Shown here: in pieces, positions 1,821-50,489 of the stretch
Numbering within the stretch: the first letter of the stretch is position 1
How the letters are laid out: every line of letters starts with the position of its first letter
DNA from: Opitutus sp. GAS368
GTDB lineage: Bacteria; Verrucomicrobiota; Verrucomicrobiia; Opitutales; Opitutaceae
DNA length: 64,000 nucleotides
Assembly (NCBI RefSeq): GCF_900104925.1
Contig: NZ_LT629735.1
Span: forward strand, 1,458,291 to 1,522,290
Direction: 5' to 3'
The notes under the pieces: model-generated
Seen by the model: the letters and a program-made list of their open reading frames with translations, nothing else
What the model was told of the DNA's origin: nothing
Databases searched by the model: none
Program-made: the position numbers and the translations under genes

Positions 1821-2939
1821 TCAGTCGAGCCGTGCCCGTTGGGCCGCCGCGAAATCCGCCGGCAGCGGCAGGTAGTTGCCATTGGCGACGATCGCCTCCT
1901 GCCCCTCGCGGCTCAGGATGTAGCGGAGGAATTCGCGCAGCTTCGGGTCGACGGCCGTGCCGGGCTTGCGGTTGAGGTAGAAATAAAGGTTCCGCACCAG
2001 CGGGTAGGTCCGGTCCTGGAAAGTCGCCTTGCTGGGCGCCACGAACGGGCCGCCCGCCGCCACCGCCAGCGCGACCGGCTTCAGGCCGGGCACTTTGGCG
2101 GCCTGGGGCACGATGGTCCACGCGATGCCGTATTTGTCCTGCAGCAGCTCCTCGCGGAGCATGTGCTGCACGCCGCCGCGCTGTTCCACCTTGTCGTCGT
2201 CGTCGATCATCTTGCTGCCGGTCTCGACGTAGCCCCGGTAGTTGGGGTTCCACTTGTCGCTGTTGTGCAGGACGCGGAGCTGGAAGAAGCGCGTGGTGCC
2301 CGACGGCGCGTGGCCGTAGGTGTGGATGGGTTTGTCCGCCCACTCGCCGGTCAGGCCGAGCTGGCCCCAGGTGCGGATGTCCTGCTCCGGGCCGCGCGCG
2401 GCCTTGAGGTCCCACTTGAAGCCGCGCAGCGCGCCGTTGCGCTCGCTGCCGAAAATCCCGTCGAGCTGTGCCAGCGTGAGCCGGGCCAGCGGGTTGTCGG
2501 GATGCACGTAGATCACGATGCCCGGCGACCGCCCTTCCACGTCGTAGGTGCCGGACGCGACCGTGATGTCCGTGGCGTGGTAGCCATAGACCTCGTAGAA
2601 CGACAGGACCTCGGTGATGGCCGGCTCGCCGCCGTCCGGGGCCAGGTCGGTCACGCCGGTCACCAGCGCGGGAAAGGCCGCGTCGCTCGTCGGGAACGTG
2701 TCGTGGAAGGTGACGCCGGGGTGGTATCTTTGAAACCCGGCTTCCCAAATCCTGAACAGCCCGCCGAACCCGAAGCCGTAATTGCGGATCACGCCGGAAA
2801 CCGTCTGTTGCGGGGCGTAGGCGGGGAACCCGCTCAAATCGAACTCGCCGGCCGCGGAGTTGGCAGCAAGACACGCAACCAGACCGGCGCCAAGCAGCGT
2901 GCGCCCAAAAAAAGCAGGCAATAAGGAGACCGGTTTCAT
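1821..2939 (-). CDS. SBP-1, PstS-like binding protein with intact SGT loop
   Basis: A 372-residue exported PstS-like (PBP_like_2, COG0226) protein. The signal peptide is about residues 1-31; LVAC inside it resembles a lipobox, so a lipoprotein is possible. The family core RTWGQLGLTGEW is at 189-200. It is followed by SGTTRFF at 213-219, the loop that holds phosphate in true PstS proteins, which only SBP-1 and SBP-2 retain. It groups with SBP-6 and SBP-9 (shared RFF/HFF, NPNYR and a SGTKM-like segment). It lies 27 bp upstream of the cytochrome b gene and 127 bp after the small protein gene at 3067. It is the best candidate in the array for a genuine phosphate binder. Confidence 0.9.
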   Translation of the reverse strand: MKPVSLLPAFFGRTLLGAGLVACLAANSAAGEFDLSGFPAYAPQQTVSGVIRNYGFGFGGLFRIWEAGFQRYHPGVTFHDTFPTSDAAFPALVTGVTDLAPDGGEPAITEVLSFYEVYGYHATDITVASGTYDVEGRSPGIVIYVHPDNPLARLTLAQLDGIFGSERNGALRGFKWDLKAARGPEQDIRTWGQLGLTGEWADKPIHTYGHAPSGTTRFFQLRVLHNSDKWNPNYRGYVETGSKMIDDDDKVEQRGGVQHMLREELLQDKYGIAWTIVPQAAKVPGLKPVALAVAAGGPFVAPSKATFQDRTYPLVRNLYFYLNRKPGTAVDPKLREFLRYILSREGQEAIVANGNYLPLPADFAAAQRARLD

Positions 2940-2955
2940 TGATGGGTTGGTTGGT

Positions 2956-3019
2956 GGCAGGGCAAATCCTCCGGATGAGCCGTTCGATGCACGGCTCGGC
3001 GGGGACGACCCGCCCTGCC
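2956..3019. repeat. REP-like imperfect palindrome, family D
   Basis: GGCAGGGC and GCCCTGCC-type arms flank a centre containing CCGGATGAGCCG and CGGCTCGGCG. A related copy is at 32843-32909. It fills the gap between SBP-1 and the small protein gene. Confidence 0.55.
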
Positions 3020-3066
3020 TGTTTGGCCGGCCACGATGACGGTCAGAAAATCACGACCAAGTGTTT

Positions 3067-3558
3067 TCATGGGGTGGGTTTGAACAGCTCGGCCAGGGCC
3101 GGGATCTGCCGGGCGACATGGTCGCGGATGGCGGTGGCCTCGGCCAGATATTTCACCTGGTCCTCCCCCGCCTGGAATTTGAACTGGAGGGCCAGCGAGC
3201 CGATTTCCTTCCCGGTGCGGTCGAGCAGCGGGAGCATGACCCCCAGCTTCGGGGCCTTGGTGCTCGGCACGATGGTCGTGGCCCCGTGCAGGATATCTTC
3301 CGGGTCGCTGGGCTTGCCGATGACATCCAGCGTCGAGGCGATGATCGCCTGCCGGTCGCCGCCCCGCGGCACACAGTGCAGGCCGGCGGCCACCAGTCCG
3401 GGATTCGCGACCATGATTTCGGTCACGAGCTGCTGCGCGTAGATGTGGTTGTCCGTCGCGAGGGTGTATTTCGGCACCTCGGCGGCGCACAACCCGGCGC
3501 CGCCGAACAGCACGGCCAGGCCGACGGCCAGTTTGAAGAGAAGGGATGATTTTTGCAT
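3067..3558 (-). CDS. Small periplasmic protein, paralogue 1 of 3
   Basis: A 163-residue protein with a signal peptide of about 26 residues. It is paralogous to the products at 42883 and 51574. Shared features are IYAQQLVTEIM followed by NPGLV near residue 45, a central IGKPSDPED segment, then GVMLPLLDRTGKEIGSLALQFKF and a C-terminal AIRDHVARQIPALAELF. The pattern of a helix, an I-G-(K/N)-x-D-D segment and a strand stating 'plus-something-plus-G' recalls periplasmic single-Cache or PAS-like sensor folds, but I do not recognise a named family. It sits 10 bp after SBP-2 in the same transcription unit. Function unknown. Confidence 0.7.
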   Translation of the reverse strand: MQKSSLLFKLAVGLAVLFGGAGLCAAEVPKYTLATDNHIYAQQLVTEIMVANPGLVAAGLHCVPRGGDRQAIIASTLDVIGKPSDPEDILHGATTIVPSTKAPKLGVMLPLLDRTGKEIGSLALQFKFQAGEDQVKYLAEATAIRDHVARQIPALAELFKPTP

Positions 3559-3568: not shown

Positions 3569-4630
3569 TCAGTCGAGCCGGCGGACCTGCGCGGCAGCGA
3601 GCTCGGCCGTGAGCGGCAGGTAGGCGCTGGCCCCGGCCACTTCCTGCTGGCCCGCAGGGCTGAGGATGTAGCGCAGGAACCCGGCGACCAGCGGATCGGC
3701 CGGCGCGCCGGCCTTGCGGTTGAAACAGGCCGTGACGGCCCGCGTCAGCGGATACTGCCGGCTGACCAAACTGTCGCGGGTGGCCGGGATTCCATCCAGT
3801 GCCACGGGGCGGACCCCGTCCTGCACGAAGCCGAGGCTGGCGACCGCGAGACCGTAGCGGTCCTGCGCGAGCGCGGCGAGAATCTGCCGCCCGGCGTCAT
3901 GCGTGGCGGCGCGGGGCACATCCGTGTCGCTGAACTCCGTGAGCTGCGTCCAGTTCATCATGCGGCTGTCGTTGAGCACCACATGGCGGAAGAAGCGCCC
4001 CGTGCCCGACATGGCGTCGGGTGCGTAGAGATGAAGGGGCTTGTCCGCCCACTCCCCGGTCAGGCCGAGCTGGCCCCAGGTGCGGATGTCCGCGGGCGCC
4101 AGCCGGTGTTCGGTGCCGAAAATGGCGTCGAGTTGCGCGAGTGTAAGCTGAGCGAGCGGATTGCCCCGGTGCACAAACAGCACCGGCGCCGGCGACTGGC
4201 CGGGGCGGTCGAGGCTGCCGGTCGCGACCTCCACTTGCGCCGGTTTGTAGTGAAAAATCCATTCGAAGGCCTGGAGCTCGCTCAGGGTCGGCGCGCGTCC
4301 GACCAGCGCAAGGTCGGCCTTGCCGGTGTAGAGCGCGGCCATGCCCGTGTCGCTGCCCGTGAGGTGCGGCTCCACGCGAACCCCCGGGTGCTGCTTTTGG
4401 AACGCAGCCGACCAGCGCGCCACCACGGCCGCCATCTCGGGGTTGCCGGCGACGTGCAGCACGCCGGAAAGAGGCTGCGCCGCCAACGAAGGCAATCCCA
4501 TCAGCGCCAGAAGCATTGCCGCCATCCAGGTGGAGCCGGACCTCCGGGCCGGTTTTCTTGATCGTGTGTCCAACCAACCCGTCCGGAGGCCGGGTTCCAC
4601 CTGGAATGTGCTTTGGTCTGGTCTGGTCAT
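3569..4630 (-). CDS. SBP-2, PstS-like binding protein with intact SGT loop
   Basis: A 353-residue PstS-like protein. RTWGQLG is at 183-189 and SGTGRFF at 208-214, so the phosphate loop is intact. The start overlaps the SBP-3 stop (ATGA). Residues 9-35 are encoded by a REP-like palindrome (4526-4604), and the signal-peptide core follows at about 36-50. An internal ATG (residue 36) could be the real start, which would skip the palindrome-encoded leader. SRMMNW after the loop and the overall layout pair it with SBP-22; together with SBP-3 it forms a module duplicated as SBP-22/SBP-23. Confidence 0.88.
   Translation of the reverse strand: MTRPDQSTFQVEPGLRTGWLDTRSRKPARRSGSTWMAAMLLALMGLPSLAAQPLSGVLHVAGNPEMAAVVARWSAAFQKQHPGVRVEPHLTGSDTGMAALYTGKADLALVGRAPTLSELQAFEWIFHYKPAQVEVATGSLDRPGQSPAPVLFVHRGNPLAQLTLAQLDAIFGTEHRLAPADIRTWGQLGLTGEWADKPLHLYAPDAMSGTGRFFRHVVLNDSRMMNWTQLTEFSDTDVPRAATHDAGRQILAALAQDRYGLAVASLGFVQDGVRPVALDGIPATRDSLVSRQYPLTRAVTACFNRKAGAPADPLVAGFLRYILSPAGQQEVAGASAYLPLTAELAAAQVRRLD
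4526..4604. repeat. REP-like inverted repeat, family A, inside SBP-2 leader
   Basis: Imperfect arms beginning CCAGGTGGAGCCGG and ending CCGGGTTCCACCTGG surround a short loop. Copies of the family are at 5677-5748, 31650-31722 and 62695-62766. It is read in frame as SBP-2 residues 9-35. Confidence 0.75.
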
Positions 4631-5790
4631 GGCAGTTTCTCCAGTTGCCGTTTGATCGCGTCGGCGCCGAGCGGCAGGTAATCGCTCTCGCGCACCACCG
4701 CCTGCTGGCCTTCGCGGCTGAGGAGGTAGCGGAGAAACTCCCGCACCGCCGGATCGGCGCGCCCGCCGGGCGGCACGTCGATGAAGGCCGGGATGATCCG
4801 CCCCAGCGGATAAGTCTGCGCGATCAGGTTCTCCTTGGTCGGCTCGTAGAAGGGCTCGCCCGCGTTGCGCGCCAGCGGCAGCGCCCGCACTTCCGGGTTC
4901 GCGTAGCGCACGTTTGAGATGGCGATGCCGGCGGGATTTTTCGCCAGCGTGTCGAGGATCTGCTGGCCGTGGTCGTATTGGGTGCCATCGGGCCGGAGGA
5001 CGTGCACGAACTCCTTCAGGTCGGTGTTCCAGCGGTGGCTGTTCTCCAGCACGGCCTCGCGGAAGAAAAGCGCGAAGTCCACGTCAACCTGCCAGCCGTA
5101 GGGCTGGATGCGGCGGTCCGCCCACTCCCCCGTCAGGCCGAGTTCGCCCCAGGTGCGGATGTTGCGCGGGCCGCGACGGTGCTCGGCCCCGAAGACGGCG
5201 TCGAGCTGCGCCAGCGTCAGCCCCTTGATCGGGTTGTCCTTCCGGACAAAAACCATGTGCGCATAGTCGAAGTAGTTCACGTCCAGGCTGCCGGTGGCGA
5301 TCTGGATGCCCGTGGGCGCGTAGTGTTTCTCGCGTTCGAACGCCGCGGCGGTGGCCGGGCTGATCTCCTCGCCGAGGATCGCGAGGTTCCCCGCCCCGGT
5401 GTAGAGCGCGCCGATCGCCGAGGCCGTGCCATACATGTGGTTCTCGAATTTCACGTCCGGCTGGTATTTCGCAAAGCCCGCGATCCATGCGTCCATGATC
5501 CGGCCCATGAAGTCGTGCTTCGGGCTGCCGTGGCCCCAGAGCCGGATCGTGCCGGAAACCTTCGTGGCCGGGGCATAAAGCGGCAACGCGTCCACGAACG
5601 CCACCTCGGGGGCGCCGGCATTGCCGGTCGCGAACGCCGCGGCCGGCAACAGCACGCAGAGAAACCCCCAAGCGAAGGTGGAACGCGGCGGCCGGACGCG
5701 TTGCAGGATGCTGGCAGGAGCAAACGCGTCCGGAGGCCGCGTTCCACCCTGGCTCAGGGGAAATCGGGAAACAGGGTCCGTGTTCTTCAT
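4627..5790 (-). CDS. SBP-3, PstS-like binding protein
   Basis: 387 residues. The ATG at 5790 overlaps the SBP-4 stop (ATGA), and no other ATG precedes the signal-peptide core (about 39-57). Residues 15-38 derive from a REP-like palindrome (5677-5748), an unusually long n-region for a signal peptide. The core is RTWGELGLTGEWADRRI. The SGT loop is replaced by WQVDVDFALFF, although the paired aromatics remain. It begins with WGHGSPKHDFMGRI and has LRPDGTQYDHGQQ, features shared with SBP-23. It overlaps SBP-2 by 4 bp. Confidence 0.88.
   Translation of the reverse strand: MKNTDPVSRFPLSQGGTRPPDAFAPASILQRVRPPRSTFAWGFLCVLLPAAAFATGNAGAPEVAFVDALPLYAPATKVSGTIRLWGHGSPKHDFMGRIMDAWIAGFAKYQPDVKFENHMYGTASAIGALYTGAGNLAILGEEISPATAAAFEREKHYAPTGIQIATGSLDVNYFDYAHMVFVRKDNPIKGLTLAQLDAVFGAEHRRGPRNIRTWGELGLTGEWADRRIQPYGWQVDVDFALFFREAVLENSHRWNTDLKEFVHVLRPDGTQYDHGQQILDTLAKNPAGIAISNVRYANPEVRALPLARNAGEPFYEPTKENLIAQTYPLGRIIPAFIDVPPGGRADPAVREFLRYLLSREGQQAVVRESDYLPLGADAIKRQLEKLP
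5677..5748. repeat. REP-like inverted repeat, family A, inside SBP-3 leader
   Basis: The arms are GGTGGAACGCGGCGGCCGG and CCGGAGGCCGCGTTCCACC, with a central loop. It is read in frame as residues 15-38 of SBP-3, just before its signal-peptide core. Confidence 0.75.
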
Positions 5791-6959
5791 TCGAGTTTTT
5801 TCAGTTGTTCGCGGACGGCGTCGGCCGGCAGCGGCAGCAGCTTGCCGTCGCGCACGACCGCCTCCTGTCCCTGGCGGCTCAGGATGTAGCGGATGAACTC
5901 CCGGACCTTCGGGTCCACCGGCTTGCCCGGTTCGCGGTTGATATAAAAATAATTGTTGCTGTGCAGGTAATAGCTCCGGTCCTGGACGTTCTCGATGGTG
6001 GGCGCGATGTAAGGGCCGGCATCGGCGACCGCCAGCGGCAGCGCCTTCGTCTCGGGGGTGAGAAAGGCGAGGTTGCTCACGCCGATGCTGTAGGGGTCCC
6101 TGCCGGTATCGTCGACCAGATCCTGTGCGCCGATGCCGAGTTTCCCGTCGGGGCGCACATACTGGCAATACTGCGTGAGGGTTTCGTTCCACTTGTCGCT
6201 GCCCTTGAGGAGGAGCCGGCAGAGTGTGTTGGTCGGGTCGTATTGCAGACTCATGATCCGGACGTGGATCGGCTTGTCCGCCCACTCGCCCGTCAGGCCG
6301 AGCTGGCCCCAGGTGCGGATGTTGCCCTCCGGGCCGCGGGCGAACTCGGGATGCCAGGTGGTCCCCACCCAGCCGCCGTTGCGCTCGGCGCCGAGGATGC
6401 CGTCGAGCTGCTTCACGGTGAGGCCGGTGATCGGGTTGTTTTTGTTCACAACCACGACCCAGGCGGGATTCCAGCCGAGCGTGTCGTAGGCGCCGTTGAG
6501 CGGCACCAGCTCCAGCGGGTCATGGTTGAAGGTCCGCTGGAAGCCCAGCAGCTCCATGAACTGGATGTGCCGGCCGATACCGATGTCGGCGACGCCGCAC
6601 ACCAGCGCGGGAATCGCCACGGCCGACGACTTCAGATCGATGTCCAGGGTGACATCCGGCTGGAATTTCCGGAAACCCTCCACCAAGTATTGGAACAGGT
6701 GCCCGCGGTTGATGGCGTCGTTGCCGCGGAGCCGGATCACGCCGGCCACCTTCTGTTCCGGCACATAGTCCGGCAACGCGCCGAGGTCCCAGGTCCGGGT
6801 ATAGAACTGCTTGTCGCGCTGCGTGGCGCCGCGAGCGGCCCGGGCGTTCTGGACGTCCAGGGCGTCGCGGTGCACCTCGGGCGACGGCGCCGTCTCGTCC
6901 GCCCGAGACAGGACCGGGGCGCAGAGACCCAGCAGCAGGATGACGTGGTGGAGTTTCAT
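5787..6959 (-). CDS. SBP-4, PstS-like binding protein
   Basis: 390 residues with a signal peptide of about 20. The mature N-terminus carries the LDVQNARAA...QFYTRTWDL extension seen in the NxRYxT clade. The core RTWGQLGLTGEW starts at about residue 215. The SGT position reads LQYDPTNTLCRLLL, and even the YG that normally precedes the loop is changed (HVRIMS), so this is one of the more divergent sites. Start and stop both overlap neighbours by ATGA (SBP-5 upstream, SBP-3 downstream), which indicates translational coupling. Confidence 0.9.
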   Translation of the reverse strand: MKLHHVILLLGLCAPVLSRADETAPSPEVHRDALDVQNARAARGATQRDKQFYTRTWDLGALPDYVPEQKVAGVIRLRGNDAINRGHLFQYLVEGFRKFQPDVTLDIDLKSSAVAIPALVCGVADIGIGRHIQFMELLGFQRTFNHDPLELVPLNGAYDTLGWNPAWVVVVNKNNPITGLTVKQLDGILGAERNGGWVGTTWHPEFARGPEGNIRTWGQLGLTGEWADKPIHVRIMSLQYDPTNTLCRLLLKGSDKWNETLTQYCQYVRPDGKLGIGAQDLVDDTGRDPYSIGVSNLAFLTPETKALPLAVADAGPYIAPTIENVQDRSYYLHSNNYFYINREPGKPVDPKVREFIRYILSRQGQEAVVRDGKLLPLPADAVREQLKKLE

Positions 6960-8149
6960 TCGAGTTTCTTCTGCATTTCGCGGCAGACCTCGGCGGTGAG
7001 CGGCAGGTATTTGCCGTCGCGCATCACCTCGGCCTGGCCCTCGCGGCTCACGATGAAGCGGAGGAACTCGCGCACCTTCGGGTCGAGCGCCGGGCCGGTG
7101 GCGCCGTCGGCGTAGGCGTAGATCTCGTCGACCAGCGGATACTTCCGGCTGCGCAGGTTCTCCATCGTGTAGGCGTAATAGGGCCCGTCCGCCGTGCGCG
7201 CGACCTCGAGCGCCTTCAGCTCCGGCGGCAGGTTCTTGCCGACGGGCGCGGCCACGTAGGCGATGCCGTAGCGGTCCCTGACCAAGTCGTCGTTGAGCCC
7301 GCGCTTCAACCGGCCGAAGCCCATCGAGCTACCCTTGCCGTCATCGGCGCCGACGTAGTTCGCGTAGATGCGGAGGTGCTCATTCCACTTGTCGCTGCCC
7401 TGCAGGATCCAGTCGGAAATCTCCACCGCCTGGTGGTAGCGCTGGTTCAGGCCGTAGGGCGTGATCTCCTTGTTCGCCCACTCGCCGGTCAGGCCGAGCT
7501 GGCCCCAGGTGCGGATGTTCTTCTCGGGACCACGGGCGAATTCGGGATGCCAGTCGGTGCCGACCCAGCCGCCCAGCCGTTCGGCGCCGTAGATGCCGTC
7601 GAGCTGCTCCATGGTGATTTTTGCCAGCGGATTGTCCTTCGACACCACGATGCCGAAAGCCGGCTGCCAGCCCGTGACATTGTAGGAGCCCGTGGCGATG
7701 GTGATCTCGACCGGGTCGTGGTTCTTGTAGCGCTGGTAGAGCTGGAGTTCCTCGGTGGTGATCTTGCGGCCGATGCCGAGGTCCGAGACGCCGAACACCA
7801 GCGACGGCACGGCCGCGCGGGTGGTCAGCATGTTGTATTCGAACTTCACCCCGGGGTGGAATTTCTGGAACGCCTTCTCCCAGTATTCGCCGAGGTTGCC
7901 GTCGGTGATGTAGTTGCTGCCCCACATCCGGATGGTGCCGGTGACCGGCGCCTTCGGCTGGTAGGCGGGCAGGTCGGAGAGATTCCACTGGTCGGCGGGA
8001 TAGTAGGCCTTCTTGCCCTTGGTCTTGAGGCCCGCGGCGCGCGCTTCCTGCATGGCGAGACCGGTGGAAACCTTGTCGCCGTCGGCGCCAGACGCCGTGC
8101 GGGCCACGGCGAGCACGGTCAGCAGCATGATGGTGGTTTTGATTTTCAT
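6956..8149 (-). CDS. SBP-5, PstS-like binding protein
   Basis: 397 residues with a signal peptide of about 21. The GLAMQEARAAGLKTKGKKAY extension is followed by LPAYQP and WGSNYITDG. The core starts at about 213 and has TGEWANKEITPYG. The loop reads LNQRYHQAVEISDWIL with no SGT. It is the obvious twin of SBP-11 (same extension, loop type and length), so one arose from the other by duplication. It overlaps SBP-4 by ATGA and follows SBP-6 by 18 bp. Confidence 0.9.
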   Translation of the reverse strand: MKIKTTIMLLTVLAVARTASGADGDKVSTGLAMQEARAAGLKTKGKKAYYPADQWNLSDLPAYQPKAPVTGTIRMWGSNYITDGNLGEYWEKAFQKFHPGVKFEYNMLTTRAAVPSLVFGVSDLGIGRKITTEELQLYQRYKNHDPVEITIATGSYNVTGWQPAFGIVVSKDNPLAKITMEQLDGIYGAERLGGWVGTDWHPEFARGPEKNIRTWGQLGLTGEWANKEITPYGLNQRYHQAVEISDWILQGSDKWNEHLRIYANYVGADDGKGSSMGFGRLKRGLNDDLVRDRYGIAYVAAPVGKNLPPELKALEVARTADGPYYAYTMENLRSRKYPLVDEIYAYADGATGPALDPKVREFLRFIVSREGQAEVMRDGKYLPLTAEVCREMQKKLE

Positions 8150-8167: not shown

Positions 8168-9277
8168 TTATTCGAGCTTCTTGAGCTGCTCGCGGACCAC
8201 CGCGGCGGGCAGCGGGAGATAGGTGGTGTTCTGGTGCACAATCTCCTGCCCTTCCTCGCTCAGGATGTATTTCATGAAGTCCTTCACCTTGGGCGAAAGC
8301 GGACGGCCGGGCTCCTTGTCGAGGCAGATGTAGATGCTGCGGGTCAGCGGATAGGTGCGGTCGGTGAGCGTCGCCTTGCTCGGCGCGACGAACGGGCCGC
8401 CGGGCGAACGCGCCAGCGCGATGGCCTTGATGCCCGTGATCTGCGGCACCTGGTTCCACTGCGGCATGCCCGCCCAGGCGATGCCGGATTTGTCCTTCTC
8501 GAGCTCGGCCAGCATGGCCAGCACGCCGGAGGACTCGCGGCCGGGGGTGAGGATCTTGGTGCCGTTCTCGACGTATTGGCGGTAGTTGCCGTTCCACTTG
8601 TTGGAACCCTTCAGGACCTCGATCTCGAAGAAGTGCGCCATGCCGCCGGCGGCGTAGCCGTAGGTCTGGATTTCCCGGTTTGCCCACTCGCCGGTCAGGC
8701 CGAGCTGGCCCCACGTGCGGATGTTCTCCTTCGCAGTGCGCCCGTTTTCGGGTTTCCACACGTAGCCCTCGTAACCGCCGGTGCGCTCGGAGCCGAAGAT
8801 GCCGTCGAGCTGCTGCATGGTCAGCTGCGCGAGCGGATTCTCCTTGTTGACGAAAATGATCAGCGCCCAGCTCCCGCCCGGCACATCGTAGGTGCCGCTG
8901 GCGATGGTGACCTCGGTCGGGTTGTAACCCTTGTCCTCGAAGAAGCCCAGGTAGTCGTTCAACTCGAGCTCGCGGCCGAAGACCGCGATCTCCGCCGTGC
9001 CGTGCTGGAGCGCGCCGATGGCGGCATCGCTGCCGCCGGGGTTGTCGGCGATCCGCACGTCGGGATTGTGCTTCATGTAGCCGGCTTCCCAGGCGTTCAT
9101 GAGGCCGTGCAGCCCGGCGCCGAAGACGCGCAGGATGCCCTTGTTGGGCCCGGCGGGGGGCGTGTAGGCGGGCAGCCGCTCGTCGGCGGCCGCGCCGCTG
9201 AGGCCGCAGCCGAAGCAAGCAGCGGCCGCGAGCAGCGCGAACAAGCTGCGCCGGAATGAAGAGGGGAATGATTTCAT
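8168..9277 (-). CDS. SBP-6, PstS-like binding protein
   Basis: 369 residues with a signal peptide of about 31. It has no N-terminal extension. The loop is AAGGMAHFFEIEVL: the FF pair is kept but SGT has become GGM. It groups with SBP-1 (SGTTRFF) and SBP-9 (HTGMRHFF), giving a visible series of erosion in the phosphate site. NGNYRQYVENGTKI further supports the grouping. Gaps are 18 bp to SBP-5 and 37 bp from SBP-7. Confidence 0.9.
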   Translation of the reverse strand: MKSFPSSFRRSLFALLAAAACFGCGLSGAAADERLPAYTPPAGPNKGILRVFGAGLHGLMNAWEAGYMKHNPDVRIADNPGGSDAAIGALQHGTAEIAVFGRELELNDYLGFFEDKGYNPTEVTIASGTYDVPGGSWALIIFVNKENPLAQLTMQQLDGIFGSERTGGYEGYVWKPENGRTAKENIRTWGQLGLTGEWANREIQTYGYAAGGMAHFFEIEVLKGSNKWNGNYRQYVENGTKILTPGRESSGVLAMLAELEKDKSGIAWAGMPQWNQVPQITGIKAIALARSPGGPFVAPSKATLTDRTYPLTRSIYICLDKEPGRPLSPKVKDFMKYILSEEGQEIVHQNTTYLPLPAAVVREQLKKLE

Positions 9278-11645: not shown

Positions 11646-11679
11646 GGGGGTAGTCAAGATTGCTGGGACCAAAGGCGTC

Positions 11680-12768: not shown

Positions 12769-12776
12769 CGCGGGAC

Positions 12777-38230: not shown

Positions 38231-38280
38231 GGGGTGATGGAGGAAAGCGTCCGAGCGGGCCGGGAATGAAAGCGGGGCCA

Positions 38281-38335
38281 GCATGCCAAAGGCTCCTGAA
38301 GCCAGCATGAAGCTTCGCTGAATTTTTCTAAAGAA
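38281..38335 (-). promoter_or_regulatory. Pho-box-like promoter P4, upstream of the NMT1-type gene
   Basis: The + strand units are CCTGAAG, CATGAAG, GCTGAAT and CTAAAGA with 4-bp spacers (38296-38335). On the minus strand 9 bp then CATGCT (38281-38286) follow. It begins just downstream of the TonB-receptor terminator. Confidence 0.75.
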
Positions 38336-38343
38336 ACCGGGGG

Positions 38344-38375
38344 CAAAAAAAATGGCCGCCGGGATGCGGCGGCCA
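38344..38375 (-). terminator. Rho-independent terminator of the siderophore-type TonB receptor
   Basis: On the minus strand an 8-bp GC-rich stem (TGGCCGCC paired with GGCGGCCA, 38353-38375) with a 7-nt loop is followed by eight T residues (38345-38352). It lies 29 bp after the stop at 38404. It isolates the receptor gene from the P4 unit. Confidence 0.85.
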
Positions 38376-38403
38376 CGAAGGGCAGAACCAGATGGCGCCC
38401 GCT

Positions 38404-43395: not shown

Positions 43396-43443
43396 AATGG
43401 ATTGGCTGGAGGGGAAATCAGTCTGCCCGCGGGAAGAGGGAGC

Positions 43444-43498
43444 ATCTTGGCCCCGTCCCATGAACCGAAGCTGAATCGTGCATTAATTCTCGTTTATC
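43444..43498 (-). promoter_or_regulatory. Pho-box-like promoter P6, upstream of small protein 2
   Basis: The + strand units are CATGAAC, GCTGAAT, CATTAAT and GTTTATC with 4-bp spacers (43459-43498). On the minus strand 9 bp then CAAGAT (43444-43449) follow. The box is 63 bp before the gene start, the same as P7 before small protein 3. Confidence 0.75.
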
Positions 43499-43559: not shown

Positions 43560-46500
43560 TCAGAATTTGACATCGGCGGAAATGAACCAAAGGCGGCCGA
43601 CGGGGGAATATTGCGCCACGTCGACGTTGTTGTTGTTCGAGCCGGCGGGCTGCGACTTCGGCGCAAAGGGCGGCATCTTGTTGGTCAAGTTGTTCACGCC
43701 GACGGTGACCTTCAGGCCCTTGAGGCATTTCCACAGCGCGGAGGCCTCACCCTTCCCGAAGGTGAAGGAACCCTGCAGGTCGAACGTCGTGTAGGCGGCG
43801 ACCTTCGTCGCGGGCGGCGTCGCGGGATTGGCCAGGTAAAGGTCGGGGATCTGGCCGCTGAGGATGTCCGTCATCGAGCTGACATGGGTGCTGCCCAGCT
43901 GCGCGGCCCAGTCGCCCTGCTTCCACTCGAGCGTGGAGTAGAAGCTGTATTTCGGGAACGTGCCGCTCATCGTCTGGCCGTTCGTGGAGTAACCGGCGTA
44001 TTCGTAGACCGGGTCGGTGGGCAGGCGCTGGACGAGGAAGGACTGCAGGTAGGTGCCGGTGGTCGAGACCGTGAACCGGCCGAGGCTGGTGGCGGGCAGC
44101 TCGTATTCCAGGCTGAGGTCCATCGCCTTGACGTGCACCGTGCCGGAGTTCGCCTGGTTGTCCAGGATGTAGAGGTCGCCGGCGTAGCCGGGACTCGTGA
44201 TGTAGGTCTTGAGGCCGCCGGGCGCGGCGAGCAGCGCCTGGCTGGAACCGGGACCGCCCGGGATGTTGCCGACCGCGGCGTTGCGGAAATAGGGCGAGGC
44301 GGAACCCAGGGTGTTGACGCTGGCGACGATGACGTTGCCGCCGATACCGGCGGGCAGGCCGTTCTGGGTGACGTCGACGTAGTTGACCGTCACGCTCAGG
44401 CCCTTGACGGCCTTGGGCGACACGACGACGCCGAACGAGCTCGAGTGCGATTTGCTCGGTTGAAGCCCCGGGTTGTTGCCGTTGCCGGAGAAGAAGGTCT
44501 TGGTGCCGACCGTCGGGTCCAACAGCGCGGTGGCGAGGATCGTGTTGGTGACAAAGCCGCCGTTGGGCGTGGAGAACAGCGCACTGAGGGTCGGGGCCGT
44601 GAACGACCGCGAATACGTGTAGCGAAGGGTGACCTGCTCGTCCACCGGCTGCCACCGCAGGCCGATCTTGGGGACGGTGGATTTGCCGGCGTCGCTGTAT
44701 TTCTCATACCGCTCGGCCAAGGTGAGGTCGAGGGCGTGCAACGCGGGCGGGGCGAGCTTGTCGCCGGTGACCGGCACGCGGACCTCGGCGAAGAGCGAGT
44801 CGATGTCCCGGCCCTGGCCGAACGGGTCGAAGAGCACGCCGCCGGCCCAGTTCGACTTGGTCAGGTCGCCGCGGTAGGAATTGTTGTCGGGCAGGCCGGA
44901 GAGCGATTCGCGGCGCCGGGCCCCGCCGAGCGCGAGGCCGACCCGGCCCGCCGGCAGTTCGCCGAAGGCGCCCACGAGCTTGGCATCGACCGACGTCAGC
45001 CGGCTGTCCACCTTGATCAGCTCGGTGCCGTAGACGTTGGCGAGGGCCGCGGGATCGAGGCCGGCGCGGGCGAACGGATCGAGCGCGGGCTGGACGACGG
45101 TCGCGCCGGTGGCCAGCGAGGTAACCTTGCTGAACTTGCCGCCGGCCATGACCGCGCCGGAGGCGTCGAAGCCGCCGTTGATGGCCGGCAGGAAGTTCGG
45201 GACGAAGACGACGTTGGCGAGGCGCTGGTCGAGCTTGTTCTCGCTGTAGGTGTAGCCGACCTCCCAGTTCCAGTCGGGATTGATCTCGCCGCGCATACCG
45301 AAGGTCAGCCGGTCGCCGCGAGCGTGGTTGGAGGTCTTCACGCGGGTGTCGAGCGTGCCGGCGACGACGCCGGCCACCGCACCGGTCGTGGGATTGTAGG
45401 GCGCGCCCGCCGGCACCGTGACGGTGCGGAGGTTGCCGAGGAAGTTGCCGTTGCCGCCGAGGTTCTGGGTGGAGCTGCGGGTGTCGGCGGTCATCAGGTC
45501 CCCGAAGACCGTCAGTTTCTTCGGGATCATGACCGCGGAATAGCTGATGACGGCGGAGCGCTGCTCCTGGGCGAGCAGGATGTTGGTGTAGGGCGCGACA
45601 TTGAAGAGCGGGATGGAGGGGTCGCCGGCGGCGACGTAGGTGCCGTTGGCGATCAGGTCGGCCATGCCGGCGGCCGTCGCCGCGGTGCCCACGGGATTGG
45701 ACTGGCTGGGCGAGTTCAGCGTCGGCTTCAGGTAGTTGCCGGCGACGAAGCCCGGGAAATTGGTGCCGGGCTTCAGGTTGGCGTTGACCGGATCCGTCGC
45801 GTGGGCCGGATCGAGGACGCCGGCCGCGTTGTAGCGGGAGTAGAGGAAGGGCCGGTCCGCCTGGAAGAGCGGGTCCGTCTTGGACCAGCTGCCGGTCACG
45901 GTGATGTTCGCGTCCCCGGCGTGGGCGCCGGCGACAAAGTAGCCGGAGCGTTCGCTGTAATGCCCGGTGTTGGTGGTGAAGGCGTAGCGGCCGCCCACCT
46001 CGCCGCCGCGGTAGTCGGACTTGAGGATGATGTTGACCACGCCGCCGATGGCGTCGGAGCCGTAGATGGCCGAGGCGCCGTCCGTCAGCACCTCCATGCG
46101 CTCGATGGCGGCGGCGGGAATCATGTTGATGTCGACGAAGCTCTTGCCGCCATTGCCATTGATGCCGCTGGTGGCGATACGCCGGCCGTTGATGAGCACG
46201 AGCGTGTCGAGGTTGCGCAGGGCGATCTGCGAGCCGCCGGCGGTGCTCTGGTTGGTGTTGGTCGCATTGCTGTTGCCGGCGTTGCTGCGACCGGCGAAGG
46301 CCGGGATGCGCTTGCGCAGGATCTCAAGCAGGTTGGAATTCAATCCGGTCTGGGCGATGTCATGCTGGCCGAGCACGACGACCGGCACGGCCGCGGCGTC
46401 GGCCGCCGTCGGGATGTTCGATCCGGTGGTGACGACGTAGGTCTCCAGCCTGGTGACCTCCTCGGCATTCTCGGACCCCGCCTTGGGTGCCGGCGCGGGA

Positions 46501-46856
46501 TTCTTGTCCGCCTTGACCGGAGCCGAGCGCCGCACGGCCAGCGCGCCGGTCTTGGCGTCCTCGCTGGCGGCCAGGCCGGTATCGGCGAGCAGGGCGTCGA
46601 GGGCCTCCCGCGGCCGCAGCGATCCCTTGACCGCGCGGGTCTGAACCCCACCGACCGCCTCCGGGGAGAAGACGATCTCCCGCCCGGCCTGGGCGGCAAA
46701 CTGTTTCAGCGTCTGGCCGGCCGGCCCGGCGGGAATATCAAAGGCCACCGGCTCCGCCGGCGCGGCGAAGACCCGGGCGGGGAATGATCCGGAAAGCAGC
46801 AGCAAGCCGAACACGGGCCAGAGGGCCCGGCGCAAGAGGGTAAACGGGGACTTCAT
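43560..46856 (-). CDS. TonB-dependent receptor with N-terminal STN signalling domain
   Basis: 1098 residues. After the signal peptide (about 1-31), residues 36-105 form an STN (secretin/TonB short N-terminal) domain: FDIPAGPAGQTLKQFAAQAG and LRPREALDALLADTGL. A proline/lysine linker follows, then ETYVVTTGSNIP as TonB box. The plug has TLVLINGRRIATSG and MEVLTDGASAIYGSDAIGG (about 215-270). The barrel ends WFISADVKF. STN receptors signal to a FecR anti-sigma factor, and here fecR-like and sigma genes lie directly upstream (76 bp). The ligand is unknown. Confidence 0.92.
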   Translation of the reverse strand: MKSPFTLLRRALWPVFGLLLLSGSFPARVFAAPAEPVAFDIPAGPAGQTLKQFAAQAGREIVFSPEAVGGVQTRAVKGSLRPREALDALLADTGLAASEDAKTGALAVRRSAPVKADKNPAPAPKAGSENAEEVTRLETYVVTTGSNIPTAADAAAVPVVVLGQHDIAQTGLNSNLLEILRKRIPAFAGRSNAGNSNATNTNQSTAGGSQIALRNLDTLVLINGRRIATSGINGNGGKSFVDINMIPAAAIERMEVLTDGASAIYGSDAIGGVVNIILKSDYRGGEVGGRYAFTTNTGHYSERSGYFVAGAHAGDANITVTGSWSKTDPLFQADRPFLYSRYNAAGVLDPAHATDPVNANLKPGTNFPGFVAGNYLKPTLNSPSQSNPVGTAATAAGMADLIANGTYVAAGDPSIPLFNVAPYTNILLAQEQRSAVISYSAVMIPKKLTVFGDLMTADTRSSTQNLGGNGNFLGNLRTVTVPAGAPYNPTTGAVAGVVAGTLDTRVKTSNHARGDRLTFGMRGEINPDWNWEVGYTYSENKLDQRLANVVFVPNFLPAINGGFDASGAVMAGGKFSKVTSLATGATVVQPALDPFARAGLDPAALANVYGTELIKVDSRLTSVDAKLVGAFGELPAGRVGLALGGARRRESLSGLPDNNSYRGDLTKSNWAGGVLFDPFGQGRDIDSLFAEVRVPVTGDKLAPPALHALDLTLAERYEKYSDAGKSTVPKIGLRWQPVDEQVTLRYTYSRSFTAPTLSALFSTPNGGFVTNTILATALLDPTVGTKTFFSGNGNNPGLQPSKSHSSSFGVVVSPKAVKGLSVTVNYVDVTQNGLPAGIGGNVIVASVNTLGSASPYFRNAAVGNIPGGPGSSQALLAAPGGLKTYITSPGYAGDLYILDNQANSGTVHVKAMDLSLEYELPATSLGRFTVSTTGTYLQSFLVQRLPTDPVYEYAGYSTNGQTMSGTFPKYSFYSTLEWKQGDWAAQLGSTHVSSMTDILSGQIPDLYLANPATPPATKVAAYTTFDLQGSFTFGKGEASALWKCLKGLKVTVGVNNLTNKMPPFAPKSQPAGSNNNNVDVAQYSPVGRLWFISADVKF

Positions 46857-46932
46857 GTGTGGGGTTGGGGTTCACCTGCTAAGAAACGCCGCGGACAATT
46901 TTCCGCTAAAGGTATTTGGCGCCGCCCGCGGC

Positions 46933-47964
46933 TCAGTGCTGCAAGCTGATCTCCGCCTCATCACTGCGCACGGCCCGCATGCCGAAGTCCGATTCCATCA
47001 GGCGAACAAAGCCCTCGATGTTGTCCGAGCGGAAGCTCGCACTCAACCGGACGCGGCCCAGCGCGGGATCCGCCAGCACCAGCCGCACCGGGTTGTGGCG
47101 GTTGAACTCGGCGGCGATGTCCGCCAGGGTCGCATCCGAGAAATCCAGCAGGCGCGGCTGCCAGGCGAGTTGCTCCGCCATCTGCTCGCCCGACAGCTGG
47201 GCGACCTGGGCCGTCGCCGGGGAGAACGGCACCACGGCGCAGTCACCGGGCAGCAGCAGCGGGGTCGCCGGGCTCATGCCATTGGGGGAGTGCTCGTCGG
47301 GATGCTCGACGTGCACCTTGCCCTCGGTGACAAGGACCTCGACCGCCGAGGAGCCGAGCCGGACATTGAACGCCGTGCCGACCGCCTGCACCTCGATCCC
47401 GTGCGCGACCACGACAAACGGGCGCAGCGGATTCTTCGCCACGCTGAAATGGGCTTCGCCGCACACCAGGCGGACCCGGCGTTCACTGGGCGTGAATTCG
47501 ACGGTCAGCACCGAGCCGCGGTTCAATTGCACCTCGGAGCCATCGGTCAGGAGGCGCTCCTCGATCGGGGCCACGGGAGCCCAGCGCCCGGCCGCCGGGG
47601 CGGAAGACGGGGGCGCGGGGCGGGAGAAAAACAGGCCGAGGATCAGGGCGGCGGCCGCCGCCAGGCCCAAGGGCGCATAAAGCCGCCAGGCCCGACGGGG
47701 GAAAACCGCCACCGGCGGAGGGGCCAGCAAGTCCGGATCGGGTCTCGCCTGCACCGAGGCCTGCAGGCCCGCCAGCCGGTCAAGCTCATCCCAGCCGCGG
47801 CTGTGCTCGGCAAACGCGGTGCGGTGTCGCGGGTCGGCCGCCAGCCACTGGGACAGCTCGTCCTGCTCGACCGCGGTCAGACCGCGGTCCTGGCGCAACA
47901 CCCATTCCGCCGCGTGGGCCGCCAACGGGTCTTCATCCGCTTCCGGGTAATGATTCCGGTGCAT
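46933..47964 (-). CDS. FecR-family anti-sigma factor
   Basis: 343 residues. It has a cytoplasmic DUF4880-type N-domain (AAEWVLRQDRGLTAVEQDEL near 17-36), one membrane span (about 110-127, LGLAAAAALILGLFF) and a periplasmic FecR domain (about 145-245, DGSEVQLNRGSVLTVEF and VGTAFNVRLGSSAVEVLVTE). The C-terminal part (LADIAAEFNRHNPVRL) resembles the STN-like segment that contacts the receptor. Its start overlaps the sigma-factor stop by one base (TGATG), so the two are translated together. Confidence 0.92.
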   Translation of the reverse strand: MHRNHYPEADEDPLAAHAAEWVLRQDRGLTAVEQDELSQWLAADPRHRTAFAEHSRGWDELDRLAGLQASVQARPDPDLLAPPPVAVFPRRAWRLYAPLGLAAAAALILGLFFSRPAPPSSAPAAGRWAPVAPIEERLLTDGSEVQLNRGSVLTVEFTPSERRVRLVCGEAHFSVAKNPLRPFVVVAHGIEVQAVGTAFNVRLGSSAVEVLVTEGKVHVEHPDEHSPNGMSPATPLLLPGDCAVVPFSPATAQVAQLSGEQMAEQLAWQPRLLDFSDATLADIAAEFNRHNPVRLVLADPALGRVRLSASFRSDNIEGFVRLMESDFGMRAVRSDEAEISLQH

Positions 47965-48494
47965 CAGCGCGCGTGGTTATGTTTGCGGAAATACTCCACG
48001 CATTTTCGCAGACCGATGCCGCCCTGGGCCTCGACGGTGTGCTCGGAGATGTGCAACCGCGCCGCCACCTCCTTTTGGGACAGGCCGTAGATTTTCCGCA
48101 AGGTGATGATCTGGCGACAGCGTTCGGGCAGGGATTGGATGGCGGCGATCAAAAATTGGAGTTCCTCGGCATGGACGATCGTCTCGGGGATGCCCGCGCC
48201 ACCATCCAAGACAGTTGAAAGGTCGGTTTCCGTTAAGCCATTCGGTTGCGAATATCGCAAGTGCCGCAACTGGTTGAGCGCCAGATTGCGCGCCGTGGTG
48301 AAAAGAAAGGCGCGGGGATTGGCGATCGGCCCCTTCGCGTGGGCCTTCAGAACGCGGACATAGGCTTCCTGCACCAAGTCCTCGGCATCGGACAGCGTCG
48401 AAAACCGGGCCCGCAGCCACGCCAGCACGGCGGGGCCGTGCGGCAGCACCTGCTCCGCAAACCACCGGTCCGAGTCGCGTTGGACGGGGTTCAT
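47964..48494 (-). CDS. FecI-type ECF RNA polymerase sigma factor
   Basis: 176 residues. Region 2 is at about 20-90 (DAEDLVQEAYVRVL; NPRAFLFTTARNLALN) and region 4 at about 120-170 (SLPERCRQIITLRKIYGLSQ; HISEHTVEAQ). With FecR and the STN receptor it should form a cell-surface signalling circuit. Its start overlaps the SBP-28 stop (ATGA), so it is also transcribed from the upstream P7 unit. This would place the sigma factor itself under phosphate control (inference). Confidence 0.92.
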   Translation of the reverse strand: MNPVQRDSDRWFAEQVLPHGPAVLAWLRARFSTLSDAEDLVQEAYVRVLKAHAKGPIANPRAFLFTTARNLALNQLRHLRYSQPNGLTETDLSTVLDGGAGIPETIVHAEELQFLIAAIQSLPERCRQIITLRKIYGLSQKEVAARLHISEHTVEAQGGIGLRKCVEYFRKHNHAR

Positions 48495-49423
48495 GGGGCG
48501 GAGACCAGTGGGAAGAACCCCTGCGCATCGGCCGTGATGGCCCCCTGCCCTTCCGGGCCGAGCACATAGCGCAAAAACTCCCGGGTCACGGCATCCGGTG
48601 CCGGCCCGGTCACGAGATAGATGGTCCGCGCCAGCGGATACCGGCGTTGCGCGATTTCCGCCTCCGTGCCGGTGTAGAACGGGCCGGTGTCCGCCTCGCC
48701 GAGCGCGAGCGCCTTCACGCCGGGCACGGCATAGGCGAAGCCGCTGTAGCCGATCGCGGTCTCATCGGCCGCCACCGCGCGGGTGATTTGCTCCAGCGAC
48801 TGGGCGCCACCGGGCACGTCGGTGTATTCGTGCAGATCGTCGCACCATACGCGGCCGGCGAGCAGGCGGTTTTCCAGAAAGTTGACGATGCCGGGCGGGT
48901 TGCCGGTCTCGCGGCGCACCTTCATCCCGTGCAGGGTGATTTTCCGCGCCGCCCACCCGCCGGTCAGGCCGAGCTGGCCCCAGGTCGTGATTTGGCCGGC
49001 GCGGGAGAAGATTTCCCGGAGCTGGGCGAGGGAGATCCGCGCCAGCGGGTTCTTCTCGTTCACGAAAATCACGATGGCGTGCGTGCCGCCCTTCGTGGCC
49101 CGGCTGCCGGTGGCCACGGGCACCAGCTGCGGCGCGCCCCCGGCGAGCTGCGTGATGCGCGCCTGCTCGGTGGCGAACAGCTCGCGCGCGTAGGGCGCCA
49201 CCCGCACCTCGCCCCGCGCCAACGGATCGGTGAAATCCGCCGAGAATTTCGCCCGGAGCGTGATGCGCGCCGGCGTGCCGTGGTGCTGCGCGGTGAAGCC
49301 GGCCGTCCAGGCCTGCATCAGGCCGTCCATGCTCTCGGCGCTGGCGCAGGGCAGCTCCGCCGCCCGCAAAAAACAAGCCCCCGCCAGCAAGGCGAGGGCT
49401 GAGACTGACAGGCTGACTTTCAC
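48491..49423 (-). CDS. SBP-28, divergent PstS-like binding protein
   Basis: 310 residues from the GTG at 49423; a TTG at 49456 is less likely because it lies inside the SBP-29 gene. Signal peptide about 1-22. The N-terminal domain is shortened. The core is TTWGQLGLTGGWAARKI, and the loop KVRRETGNPPGIVNFL contains an insertion. The C-terminus LRYVLGPEGQGAI is family-typical. It overlaps the sigma-factor start by 4 bp and follows SBP-29 by 1 bp. Confidence 0.85.
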   Translation of the reverse strand: MKVSLSVSALALLAGACFLRAAELPCASAESMDGLMQAWTAGFTAQHHGTPARITLRAKFSADFTDPLARGEVRVAPYARELFATEQARITQLAGGAPQLVPVATGSRATKGGTHAIVIFVNEKNPLARISLAQLREIFSRAGQITTWGQLGLTGGWAARKITLHGMKVRRETGNPPGIVNFLENRLLAGRVWCDDLHEYTDVPGGAQSLEQITRAVAADETAIGYSGFAYAVPGVKALALGEADTGPFYTGTEAEIAQRRYPLARTIYLVTGPAPDAVTREFLRYVLGPEGQGAITADAQGFFPLVSAP

Positions 49424-49424
49424 G

Positions 49425-50489
49425 TCAGTCGAGCTTGGCGAGCTCCTCTTGCACAACCTCGGGCAGCAGCGGCATGAAGACGCCCTCGGCGGCCACGACG
49501 TTCTGGCCCTGCTGGCTGAGCACGCACTTCAGGAACTCCTTGATCTTGGGCTCGAGCTTGGTGCCCGGCGGACGGTTGACGTAGATATAGACGTAGCGGC
49601 TGAGCGGATAGACGTGGTGATACACCGTGTCGATCGTCGGCGCGATGAACGGGTCGCCGTCCTTCTCGGCCAGCGGCACGACGCGGACGTCGTCGGTGAC
49701 GTTGGCGAGCAGCGCGTAGGTGAGGCCGCCGAGCTGCGTGTGCATGTCGTTCGAGGCGACGGTGAACGCGTGGGTGAAGCCCTGGCCCTTGACGTTCTGG
49801 ATGCCGTCGCGCCATTCGCCGTTGTTCAGCACCTTCCACTTGAAGAACTGCTCGATGCCGTTGGGCGGCCTGAGGCCGTAGGGGTGGATCGGACGGTCGG
49901 CCCACTCGCCGGTGAGGCCGAGCTGGCCCCAGGTCGTGATCGCCTCGCCGCCGCGGTTGTGCGACTTGGAATAGATCTGGTCGAGCTGCTTGAAGGTGAG
50001 CCCCTTGATCGGGTTGCTTTTCGCCACCAGCACGATGCTGGTCGCGGTCTTGCCGAGCGAGCCGAGGCTGCCGGTGGCGACCTTGATGGCGAACGGCTCG
50101 TAGCCGAACTTCTTCACGAAATCATCGTGCTCCTTCGGCAGGGCCTCGCGGCCGACGGGCGCCAGGTGCGCGATGCCGGCGGTCAGCGCGGGCACGCCGC
50201 TGCCGGAGGCGCGGGCCTCCATCGTGACGCTGAGGCGCGGGTAGGCCTCGCGGAACATCTTGATCCAGCCGAGCGTGATCTCGTCCATGATGTCGGCACC
50301 GACGAGATTGAGTTCTTCCTCGGGGACGGACGCGACCGGGCCGGGTTTCCACGCGGGAATGGCCGGATCGGCCTTGAGGTGGTGCTCGACCGCGGCGTAT
50401 TTCAGCGCGAAGGCGGGGCTGGAGGCGACCAGGGCAAGCGCGGCGGCGAGGGCCAGCCGCGGCGCGGTGAGGAATGACGGGGTATTCAT
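49425..50489 (-). CDS. SBP-29, PstS-like binding protein
   Basis: 354 residues with a signal peptide of about 28. It starts with KYAAVEHHLKADPAIPAW instead of the LPxYxP entry. The core is TTWGQLGLTGEWADRPI and the loop LRPPNGIEQFFKWKVL, of the PNGI type shared with SBP-13. GEWRDGIQNVKG follows. It is between the propeller gene (24 bp upstream) and SBP-28. Confidence 0.9.
   Translation of the reverse strand: MNTPSFLTAPRLALAAALALVASSPAFALKYAAVEHHLKADPAIPAWKPGPVASVPEEELNLVGADIMDEITLGWIKMFREAYPRLSVTMEARASGSGVPALTAGIAHLAPVGREALPKEHDDFVKKFGYEPFAIKVATGSLGSLGKTATSIVLVAKSNPIKGLTFKQLDQIYSKSHNRGGEAITTWGQLGLTGEWADRPIHPYGLRPPNGIEQFFKWKVLNNGEWRDGIQNVKGQGFTHAFTVASNDMHTQLGGLTYALLANVTDDVRVVPLAEKDGDPFIAPTIDTVYHHVYPLSRYVYIYVNRPPGTKLEPKIKEFLKCVLSQQGQNVVAAEGVFMPLLPEVVQEELAKLD

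Follow-up and report, generated by a model that had tools for sequence, protein, structure and literature searches.

A run of 42 genes, all on the minus strand, occupies positions 62-52104 of the 64,000-nucleotide window analysed here, which is C1:1458291-1522290 of the single 4.15 Mb contig that makes up the genome of Opitutus sp. GAS368. Of these genes, 29 encode PBP_like_2 (PstS-fold) binding proteins with 30 domains in total and 13 encode other proteins; the translations bear out this count, first given by a sequence-only reading of the window. Sequence comparison indicates that the array is an old set and not a recent local burst. Its patchy and plasmid-borne occurrence points to an array system that is shared between bacterial groups and has spread laterally. 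The array proteins are very likely not phosphate receptors, and some of them probably act as paired units. Reading of the translations revealed neither PstA, PstB, PstC and PhoU nor a phosphatase gene in the run, and the earlier proposal of capture or sensing without PstABC is supported.

The conserved phosphate contacts of PstS are Thr10, Ser38, Arg135 and Ser139-Gly140-Thr141 (E. coli numbering). Array domains were aligned to the genome's own PstS and to P. aeruginosa PstS, both of which keep the arginine and the SGT triad. The Arg135-equivalent is present in 0/30 array domains, the triad is kept in 2/30 and the Thr10-equivalent is Thr in 1/30. The arginine is also absent from all seven U/D domains found elsewhere in the genome. 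Among 373 related domains of other genomes, Arg occupies this column in 13 and SGT is found in 27, while both together occur in none. The Ser38-equivalent is Ser or Thr in 22/30 array domains and an Arg follows the third motif in 18/30, so an anion-type cleft is still possible.

These proteins might nevertheless capture or buffer phosphate (or a phospho-ester, phosphite or arsenate), acting as PstS homologues that store oxyanions near the membrane. Such a role would fit the PF12849 family, to which they belong, and their structural affinity. The closest solved structures are P. aeruginosa PstS 4OMB and 4PQJ (E 7e-77 for 4PQJ, the matched segment of which is contained in P. aeruginosa PstS). 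The B19 model (residues 4-338) superimposes on the 4OMB chain 25-322, N-terminal segment included, with Z 29.3, a root-mean-square deviation (rmsd) of 5.8 and 297 aligned residues. The PstS family model TIGR02136 is matched far below its cut-off of 206.6 bits in the two members scanned (B19 86.2, B16 53.7). Against this role stand the lost residues, the lack of any pst or phosphatase gene read in the run, and the FecI/FecR pair and siderophore-type receptors, which point elsewhere. Apart from the array, at C1:364-369 kb, the genome carries pst genes, with pstS identified by PF12849, pstA by TIGR00974 over cut-off, and pstC, pstB and phoU by reading of translations; the match at C1:365623 is the sole pstA over cut-off in the genome. 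Residue loss and the separate pst locus together appear to rule out phosphate as the ligand, and we regard phosphate capture as quite improbable.

The genes of the run are as follows (window positions).

62-1144, minus: PepSY_TM membrane protein, possibly a metal-chelate reductase (PF03929, 172 bits)
1152-1793, minus: cytochrome b561 (Ni_hydr_CYTB; PF01292, 79 bits)
1821-2939, minus: binding protein B01 (PF12849, tree); tree group of 22 domains in 18 other genomes
3067-3558, minus: DUFa, 163 aa, ~170 aa partner family (family alignment)
3569-4630, minus: binding protein B02, pairs with B03, 4 bp overlap
4627-5787, minus: binding protein B03, start codon uncertain; pairs with B02, fused to it in 6 other loci
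5787-6959, minus: binding protein B04
6956-8149, minus: binding protein B05; joint tree group with B11, support 1.0
8168-9277, minus: binding protein B06
9315-11756, minus: binding protein B07, domains B07a and B07b in one chain (given as the longest frame, the real start likely lying inside it)
11680-12780, minus: binding protein B08
12777-13868, minus: binding protein B09
13865-15052, minus: binding protein B10
15057-16262, minus: binding protein B11, 76% identical to B05
16259-17467, minus: binding protein B12 (PF12849)
17520-18569, minus: binding protein B13
18566-19876, minus: binding protein B14
19803-21104, minus: binding protein B15
20993-23194, minus: binding protein B16, SsuA/NMT1-type solute-binding domain fused to a PBP_like_2 domain (PF09084 and PF12849)
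23236-24342, minus: binding protein B17, pairs with B18
24362-25456, minus: binding protein B18, pairs with B17
25562-26764, minus: FGE-sulfatase-domain protein (PF03781, 149 bits)
26770-27942, minus: binding protein B19; part 26773-27786 modelled, pLDDT 95.6
27939-29018, minus: binding protein B20
29059-30399, minus: binding protein B21
30609-31751, minus: binding protein B22, pairs with B23, 4 bp overlap (PF12849, 57 bits)
31748-32821, minus: binding protein B23, pairs with B22
32917-34680, minus: binding protein B24, N-terminal extension of ~200 residues; its tree group is the largest (31 domains in 30 other genomes)
34830-36014, minus: binding protein B25, pairs with B26
36025-37107, minus: binding protein B26, pairs with B25
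37130-38386, minus: SsuA/NMT1-type solute-binding protein without permease (PF09084; TIGR01728 below cut-off)
38404-40737, minus: TonB-dependent siderophore-type receptor (TIGR01783, 230.5 over cut-off 223.5)
40881-41825, minus: binding protein B27 (PF12849)
41862-42854, minus: YncE-like beta-propeller 1 (NF052280, 81 bits, below cut-off)
42883-43461, minus: DUFb, ~170 aa partner family, predicted GAF fold, pLDDT 94.6
43560-46856, minus: TonB-dependent receptor with STN-like signalling domain (PF00593, PF07715; PF07660 27.9 bits, cut-off 28.4)
46933-47964, minus: FecR-type anti-sigma regulator (PF04773)
47964-48494, minus: ECF-type sigma factor, FecI-like by position (PF04542, PF08281)
48491-49456, minus: binding protein B28 (PF12849, 55 bits)
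49425-50489, minus: binding protein B29 (PF12849, 62 bits at C1:1507802)
50514-51554, minus: YncE-like beta-propeller 2 (weak propeller matches)
51574-52104, minus: DUFc, ~170 aa partner family, first gene of the run (alignment)

The array genes are intact. Translations of the 29 binding-protein genes contain no internal stop codon, and a simple hydropathy scan finds a hydrophobic, signal-peptide-like segment within the first 90 residues of every one of them. With longest-frame starts, 15 of the 41 neighbouring pairs in the run overlap (partly a product of over-long start calls), 32 have gaps of at most 50 bp and the widest gap is 209 bp. In the whole genome, PF12849 search yields 39 matches over the curated cut-off, none with an internal stop, one of them passing only when joined with its frame neighbours; the profile of alignment A1, used in the genus-wide search, gives 40 matching stretches. 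Identity among the 30 array domains ranges from 24 to 76% (median 36%). Reciprocal best matches link 16 array members to Opitutus sp. GL140_5 (L006), and dN/dS for 14 of these is 0.09-0.36; four further rows were excluded as non-reciprocal.

Unequal crossing over can give long tandem arrays, and the run might thus be a product of neutral amplification, a field of pseudogenes or an assembly artefact. Open frames, purifying selection, the low median identity, orthologs and collinearity in other genomes all argue against this. Since the genome is a single contig and the gene order recurs in other assemblies, an artefact is unlikely. Disrupted frames, missing export signals and misassembly had been named in advance as what would overturn the sequence-only reading; none of these was found, and judging by the sequences this explanation has practically no probability left. 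A phage origin was likewise dropped, as array proteins have no phage match at E 1e-20.

Mere paralogy, as the term paralogues in the sequence-only reading implied, does not describe these genes well. By bit score, 26/30 domains have their best match in another genome, which appears to rule out a recent local burst; by identity all 30 match better elsewhere, B08 (44 vs 43%) and B27 (39 vs 33%) by little. A tree was built from 434 domains, related and own together, reduced to 412 after removal of duplicates and of domains of at most 230 aa. Several of its groups hold nearly one domain per genome: B24 (31 domains in 30 genomes of five phyla by title), and B03 (20/20), B02 (14/14), B23 (12/12) and B22 (10/10), with supports of 0.79-0.99. 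The B01 group has 22 domains in 18 genomes. Remaining groups are small or weak (B21 support 0.13, D2 0.37, B08 alone). Altogether, 18/30 one-member groups extend past Verrucomicrobia-titled genomes. The ~200 residues ahead of the binding domain of B24 have no Pfam match; an extension of similar size is present in many B24 orthologs and absent from others.

To the related loci the following scope applies. The search took 73 loci and confirmed at least 528 places, so that each taxon count is a minimum and close relatives are over-represented; many loci are metagenome bins, the titles of which may be wrong, and phyla are groupings by genome title. By these titles, the 73 loci belong to Opitutaceae, Proteobacteria, Acidobacteria, Eremiobacterota, Actinobacteria and one Phycisphaeraceae bin. 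Window order is kept at 61-94% identity in L006, Lacunisphaera sp. U-2020 MAG007 (L038) and L045, apart from a B13-like member out of place in the first two. In the genus (21 genomes including this one, 15 of them with completeness of 90% or more and contamination of 5% or less), two others are rich in copies (G304 with 29 matches, G308 with 19); identical match coordinates tie G304 to L006 and G308 to L038. The order-wide search scored at most seven candidates per genome, and copy numbers were therefore taken from separate profile searches. At E <= 1e-30, 16 genomes carry from 4 (Streptomyces scopuliridis) to 83 (Opitutaceae bacterium STD2_236) copies, with 10 in Sphingomonas gilva, 15 in Novosphingobium kunmingense and 27 in another.

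The 83 matches of STD2_236 (G280) lie in 3.0 Mb, scattered over many contigs and often apart from the usual partners (L021, L022, L024, L029, L046-L048, L050, L052, L057, L073-L075).

Eight plasmid records match as well, at least one of the lower four being ordinary PstS. The four best are from Novosphingobium, Sphingomonas, Arthrobacter and Paraburkholderia; mobility typing classifies two as conjugative, one as mobilizable and one as non-mobilizable. The mobilizable plasmid of Paraburkholderia sp. PGU19 (L094) carries a mini version of the array with PepSY, a 2Fe-2S protein, three annotated binding proteins, a TonB receptor and two hypothetical proteins.

Certain members form fixed pairs. B03 and B23 are mutually nearest paralogs, and so are B02 and B22, B18 and B26, and B17 and B25. 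Wherever both partners are present they are adjacent in the same order: B03-B02 in 13/13 loci, B23-B22 in 10/10, B18-B17 in 9/9 and B26-B25 in 5/5. The total is 37/37, whereas 2000 shuffles of labels within loci average 4.5 and never exceed 13. Loci from one contig or genome were counted separately and some are related by descent, so that the 37 cannot be treated as independent. Pair loci span Verrucomicrobia- and Proteobacteria-titled genomes, and B23-B22 also occurs in one Acidobacteria-titled genome. In 6 loci B03 and B02 are a single polypeptide, and in 2 further loci B23, B22 and B03 are joined in one chain; B03 occurs without B02 in 7/20 loci, some of them truncated by contig ends. Most simply, duplication of two-gene units whose products may act together would account for the growth of part of the array. 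We consider it probable that the paired members act as units, their physical pairing being suggested by adjacency and fusion.

Recurrent partners were counted within three genes of the binding-protein genes in the 73 loci. They include 18 siderophore-type TonB receptors, YncE-like propellers (17 loci), PepSY (11), SsuA-type solute-binding proteins (9), cytochrome b561 (3) and FGE proteins (2); the ~170 aa family is present in 23 loci. The receptor at 38404-40737 has FhuA, FoxA and CntO as nearest PDB relatives. Sigma factor, FecR and STN receptor are adjacent (43560-48494) in the layout of FecIRA surface signalling, and residues 38-107 of the STN receptor align with the ferric-pseudobactin receptor's signalling domain (E 1.7e-5). 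Two members of the ~170 aa family were scanned, and neither has a Pfam match at E 0.001. The family's model (pLDDT 94.6) matches the GAF domain of NLH1 (Z 12.1, rmsd 3.2, 120 aligned). This GAF-fold domain is fused N-terminally to a TonB receptor in two loci, before plug and barrel in L014 and before the plug in L017; each chain is truncated where its contig or locus stops (in L017, the contig). The receptors near binding-protein genes and this fusion support the outer-membrane link that had been thought plausible from two receptors. TonB receptors also make up 3/122 control genes, so that the TonB association alone is modest.

The earlier statement that the array has no transporter holds for ABC permeases. 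It does not hold for carriers in general: the next gene after PepSY, just outside the window (C1:1456867-1458240), encodes a 2HCT citrate-type symporter, the sole PF03390 match in the genome (476.9 bits, over cut-off; 423.9 bits with the narrower TIGR00783, under its cut-off of 549). Neighbours of related arrays were scanned for similar genes, using 178 of 224 distinct unlabelled proteins; the 46 left out by eye are mainly short or apparently spurious frames, some from clusters already represented. Among the 178 are 2HCT (5), SDF (5), CitMHS (4, including L018), TctC (3, including L023) and TctA (1) proteins, enzymes of organic-acid metabolism (ICL family 2, malate synthase 1, PrpD 1) and 5 MFS carriers of no known substrate. 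Reading of one Actinopolymorpha locus shows ABC genes of the peptide type. As controls, 122 of 145 genes from other stretches of array-bearing genomes were scanned. The control tally comprises the first 25 Pfam families, in which full-length 2HCT, SDF or TctA genes would rank and none appears; lone genes for CitMHS or TctC, or gene fragments, might rank below these 25. For 2HCT, SDF and TctA together, 11/178 neighbours compare with 0/122 controls (Fisher p 0.0035). 2HCT is found in 11/20 genomes searched and lies at the array in 6; with exclusion of L030 and L033, which had been added because their loci hold 2HCT, it lies there in 4/9. CitMHS is within ~10 kb of array genes in 5/17 genomes. 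Co-occurrence of unrelated organic-acid carriers with siderophore-type receptors, FecI/FecR and PepSY suggests that metal chelates of citrate-like acids are handled.

From these associations we propose, tentatively and at less than even probability for the whole chain, a mobile TonB-linked scavenging or sensing system. The outer-membrane siderophore-type receptor would import a metal-organic-acid chelate, most likely ferric-citrate-like, to the periplasm, here along with an STN-type receptor that has a FecI/FecR pair. A panel of non-phosphate PstS-fold proteins, some acting as two-member units (B03+B02, B23+B22, B18+B17, B26+B25), would hold and sort the chelate or freed carboxylates. Metal may be reduced by the PepSY and cytochrome b561 membrane proteins. 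Carboxylates would enter via a separate secondary carrier, here the downstream 2HCT, elsewhere SDF, CitMHS/DASS or Tct. The GAF-fold protein may be a periplasmic sensor or adaptor of the receptor, and FecI/FecR together with a nearby kinase would report the ligand. A more novel reading is somewhat less likely. It would be a new class of TonB-coupled receptor machine independent of ABC permeases. Its standard kit of distinct PstS-fold subfamilies, partly obligate heteromeric pairs that are sometimes fused, would load a TonB receptor gated by GAF or pass ligands to unrelated secondary carriers, spread laterally over several phyla with up to 83 copies per genome.

Several observations weigh against a TonB-linked chelate system. 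Siderophore-type receptors make up 18/370 neighbour genes and TonB receptors of any type 3/122 controls, an enrichment of at most about twofold. The FecA model NF041676 gives the STN receptor 34 bits against a cut-off of 1100 and is not among the matches listed for the siderophore-type receptor; no Fur-box-like site lies within 3 mismatches of the consensus. The GAF match is structural, and a fold shows no function. The receptor cannot be a general requirement, since TonB systems are absent from Gram-positive hosts, and the Actinopolymorpha relatives lack a signal peptide (3/3). Verrucomicrobia-titled genomes alone, or none, are represented in 12/30 one-member tree groups. The carboxylate link is guilt by association, partly through shared ancestry, and not proof: 2HCT at the array end is seen in this genome and four Opitutae- or Verrucomicrobia-titled loci, L010 alone being from another group. 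SDF (1-8 matches per genome) and CitMHS (15/17 genomes) are common carriers. An OprP-type porin (L059) and a type I phosphodiesterase (L039), each near one array, have a phosphate flavour and would suit phosphate capture.

The Actinopolymorpha alba relatives are at L061:5191-6351, 13657-14703 and 14738-15751, read in the longest frame (signal peptide 0/3); relatives in Streptomyces (L026) have lipobox-like or Tat-like signals.

The neighbours also bear on a sensor panel, in which each binding protein or pair, taking no part in uptake, would signal its own ligand to two-component systems, sigma/anti-sigma pairs or diguanylate cyclases. A sensor-only role is reported for some Bug/TctC proteins. 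Response_reg accounts for 14/178 neighbours vs at most 1/122 controls, a kinase and a response regulator lie beside the binding-protein genes U1/U2 of this genome and a kinase relative near U1/U2 of G308, and FecI/FecR are within the run. Organic-acid carriers are enriched too, which a pure sensor set would not need, and kinases and regulators are common families; we deem this unlikely. Secreted PstS-like proteins might also serve structurally or adhesively, forming surface layers or filaments. A structural biofilm role has been proposed for P. aeruginosa PstS, the B19 model covers 4OMB including its N-terminal segment, and multi-domain fusions occur. PMC9112911 relates, citing another paper, that pstS mutations sparing phosphate binding lower biofilm. 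The carriers, TonB receptors, FecI/FecR and two-component genes in the vicinity speak instead for the handling of small molecules, and the members are distinct diverged sequences, not repeats; we hold a structural role to be improbable.

The TonB-linked system proposed here was compared with known ones. Usually, one solute-binding protein is thought to serve one transporter. PstS of PstSCAB (4OMB/4PQJ) shares with the array the fold, the N-terminal segment and the TWG.LGLTG.W core. Unlike it, the array has no PstCAB, has lost the phosphate arginine and nearly so the SGT, often has a ~30 aa insertion, and shows tens of copies, pairs and fusions. FecIRA/TonB ferric siderophore loci likewise have a sigma factor, FecR, STN-type and siderophore-type receptors and PepSY; the run differs in having no FecBCDE-type ABC importer (by reading) and in its many binding proteins of PstS fold. 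SusCD TonB loci of Bacteroidota also combine a TonB receptor with dedicated binding proteins; SusD lipoproteins are not known to be related to PstS-fold ones. Expansions of orphan Bug/TctC (TTT) proteins in Bordetella and Rhodoplanes resemble the array in massive numbers, proximity of many to assorted carriers or regulators, and organic-compound ligands. According to PMC5994714, they are dispersed, with a largest tandem array of 9 genes and 53.9% of best hits in the same genome. The array is of another family (seven of its 29 proteins, scanned against Pfam, gave PF12849 and no TctC match), forms one 29-gene run, has best matches mostly elsewhere, and includes fixed pairs and TonB receptors. 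No description of PstS-fold arrays was found in open-licence PMC text (titles and abstract starts), and one may exist elsewhere. Orphan expansion of solute-binding proteins is already known; the PstS-fold, TonB-linked version is apparently undescribed, and there is a real chance that it is something more. If true, paired and laterally spread binding proteins with TonB receptors and without ABC permease would widen the known roles of solute-binding proteins. They would also account for many database "phosphate-binding" proteins that probably do not bind phosphate. Fused B03-B02 and the GAF-TonB fusion offer a testable set for capture of metal-organic acid chelates.

Elsewhere in the genome, further copies, for which a search had been advised, are three domains, four genes and one gene at separate places. 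Beyond an RND pump, outside the window and ~9-12 kb from its start, lie U1 and the fused U2a-U2b, with another siderophore-type receptor nearby and a histidine kinase/response regulator pair beside them that most resembles the heavy-metal type at scores under the cut-offs. In G308 the array end is followed by a 2HCT gene, a kinase relative, U2 and U1, along with two small intervening genes; no RND pump was found in the 20 kb read there, and for this reason a copper link via the RND genes adjoining the run was dropped. By reading, a second cluster at 3.08 Mb combines four binding proteins with FecI, FecR, an STN-type receptor and a ~170 aa protein. A single further gene was found at 545 kb by PF12849 search.

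Scanning of 37-53 kb for sigma-70 promoters gave 1 site vs 1.9 expected. No clean empty site was found in four same-genus genomes. The flanking H+-pyrophosphatase is 76-90% identical in three of them and 31% in G224, and the other flank (RND pump) is present in one of the four, on another contig. In locus L003 (6544-7455), a lone small PBP_like_2 gene, the product of which is likewise devoid of the phosphate arginine, lies by reading between a valyl-tRNA synthetase-like gene and an NtrC-type regulator. On the opposite strand of the window, outside the array, are genes for a Sortilin/BNR-repeat protein (54209-56980) and the H+-pyrophosphatase (60162-62612).

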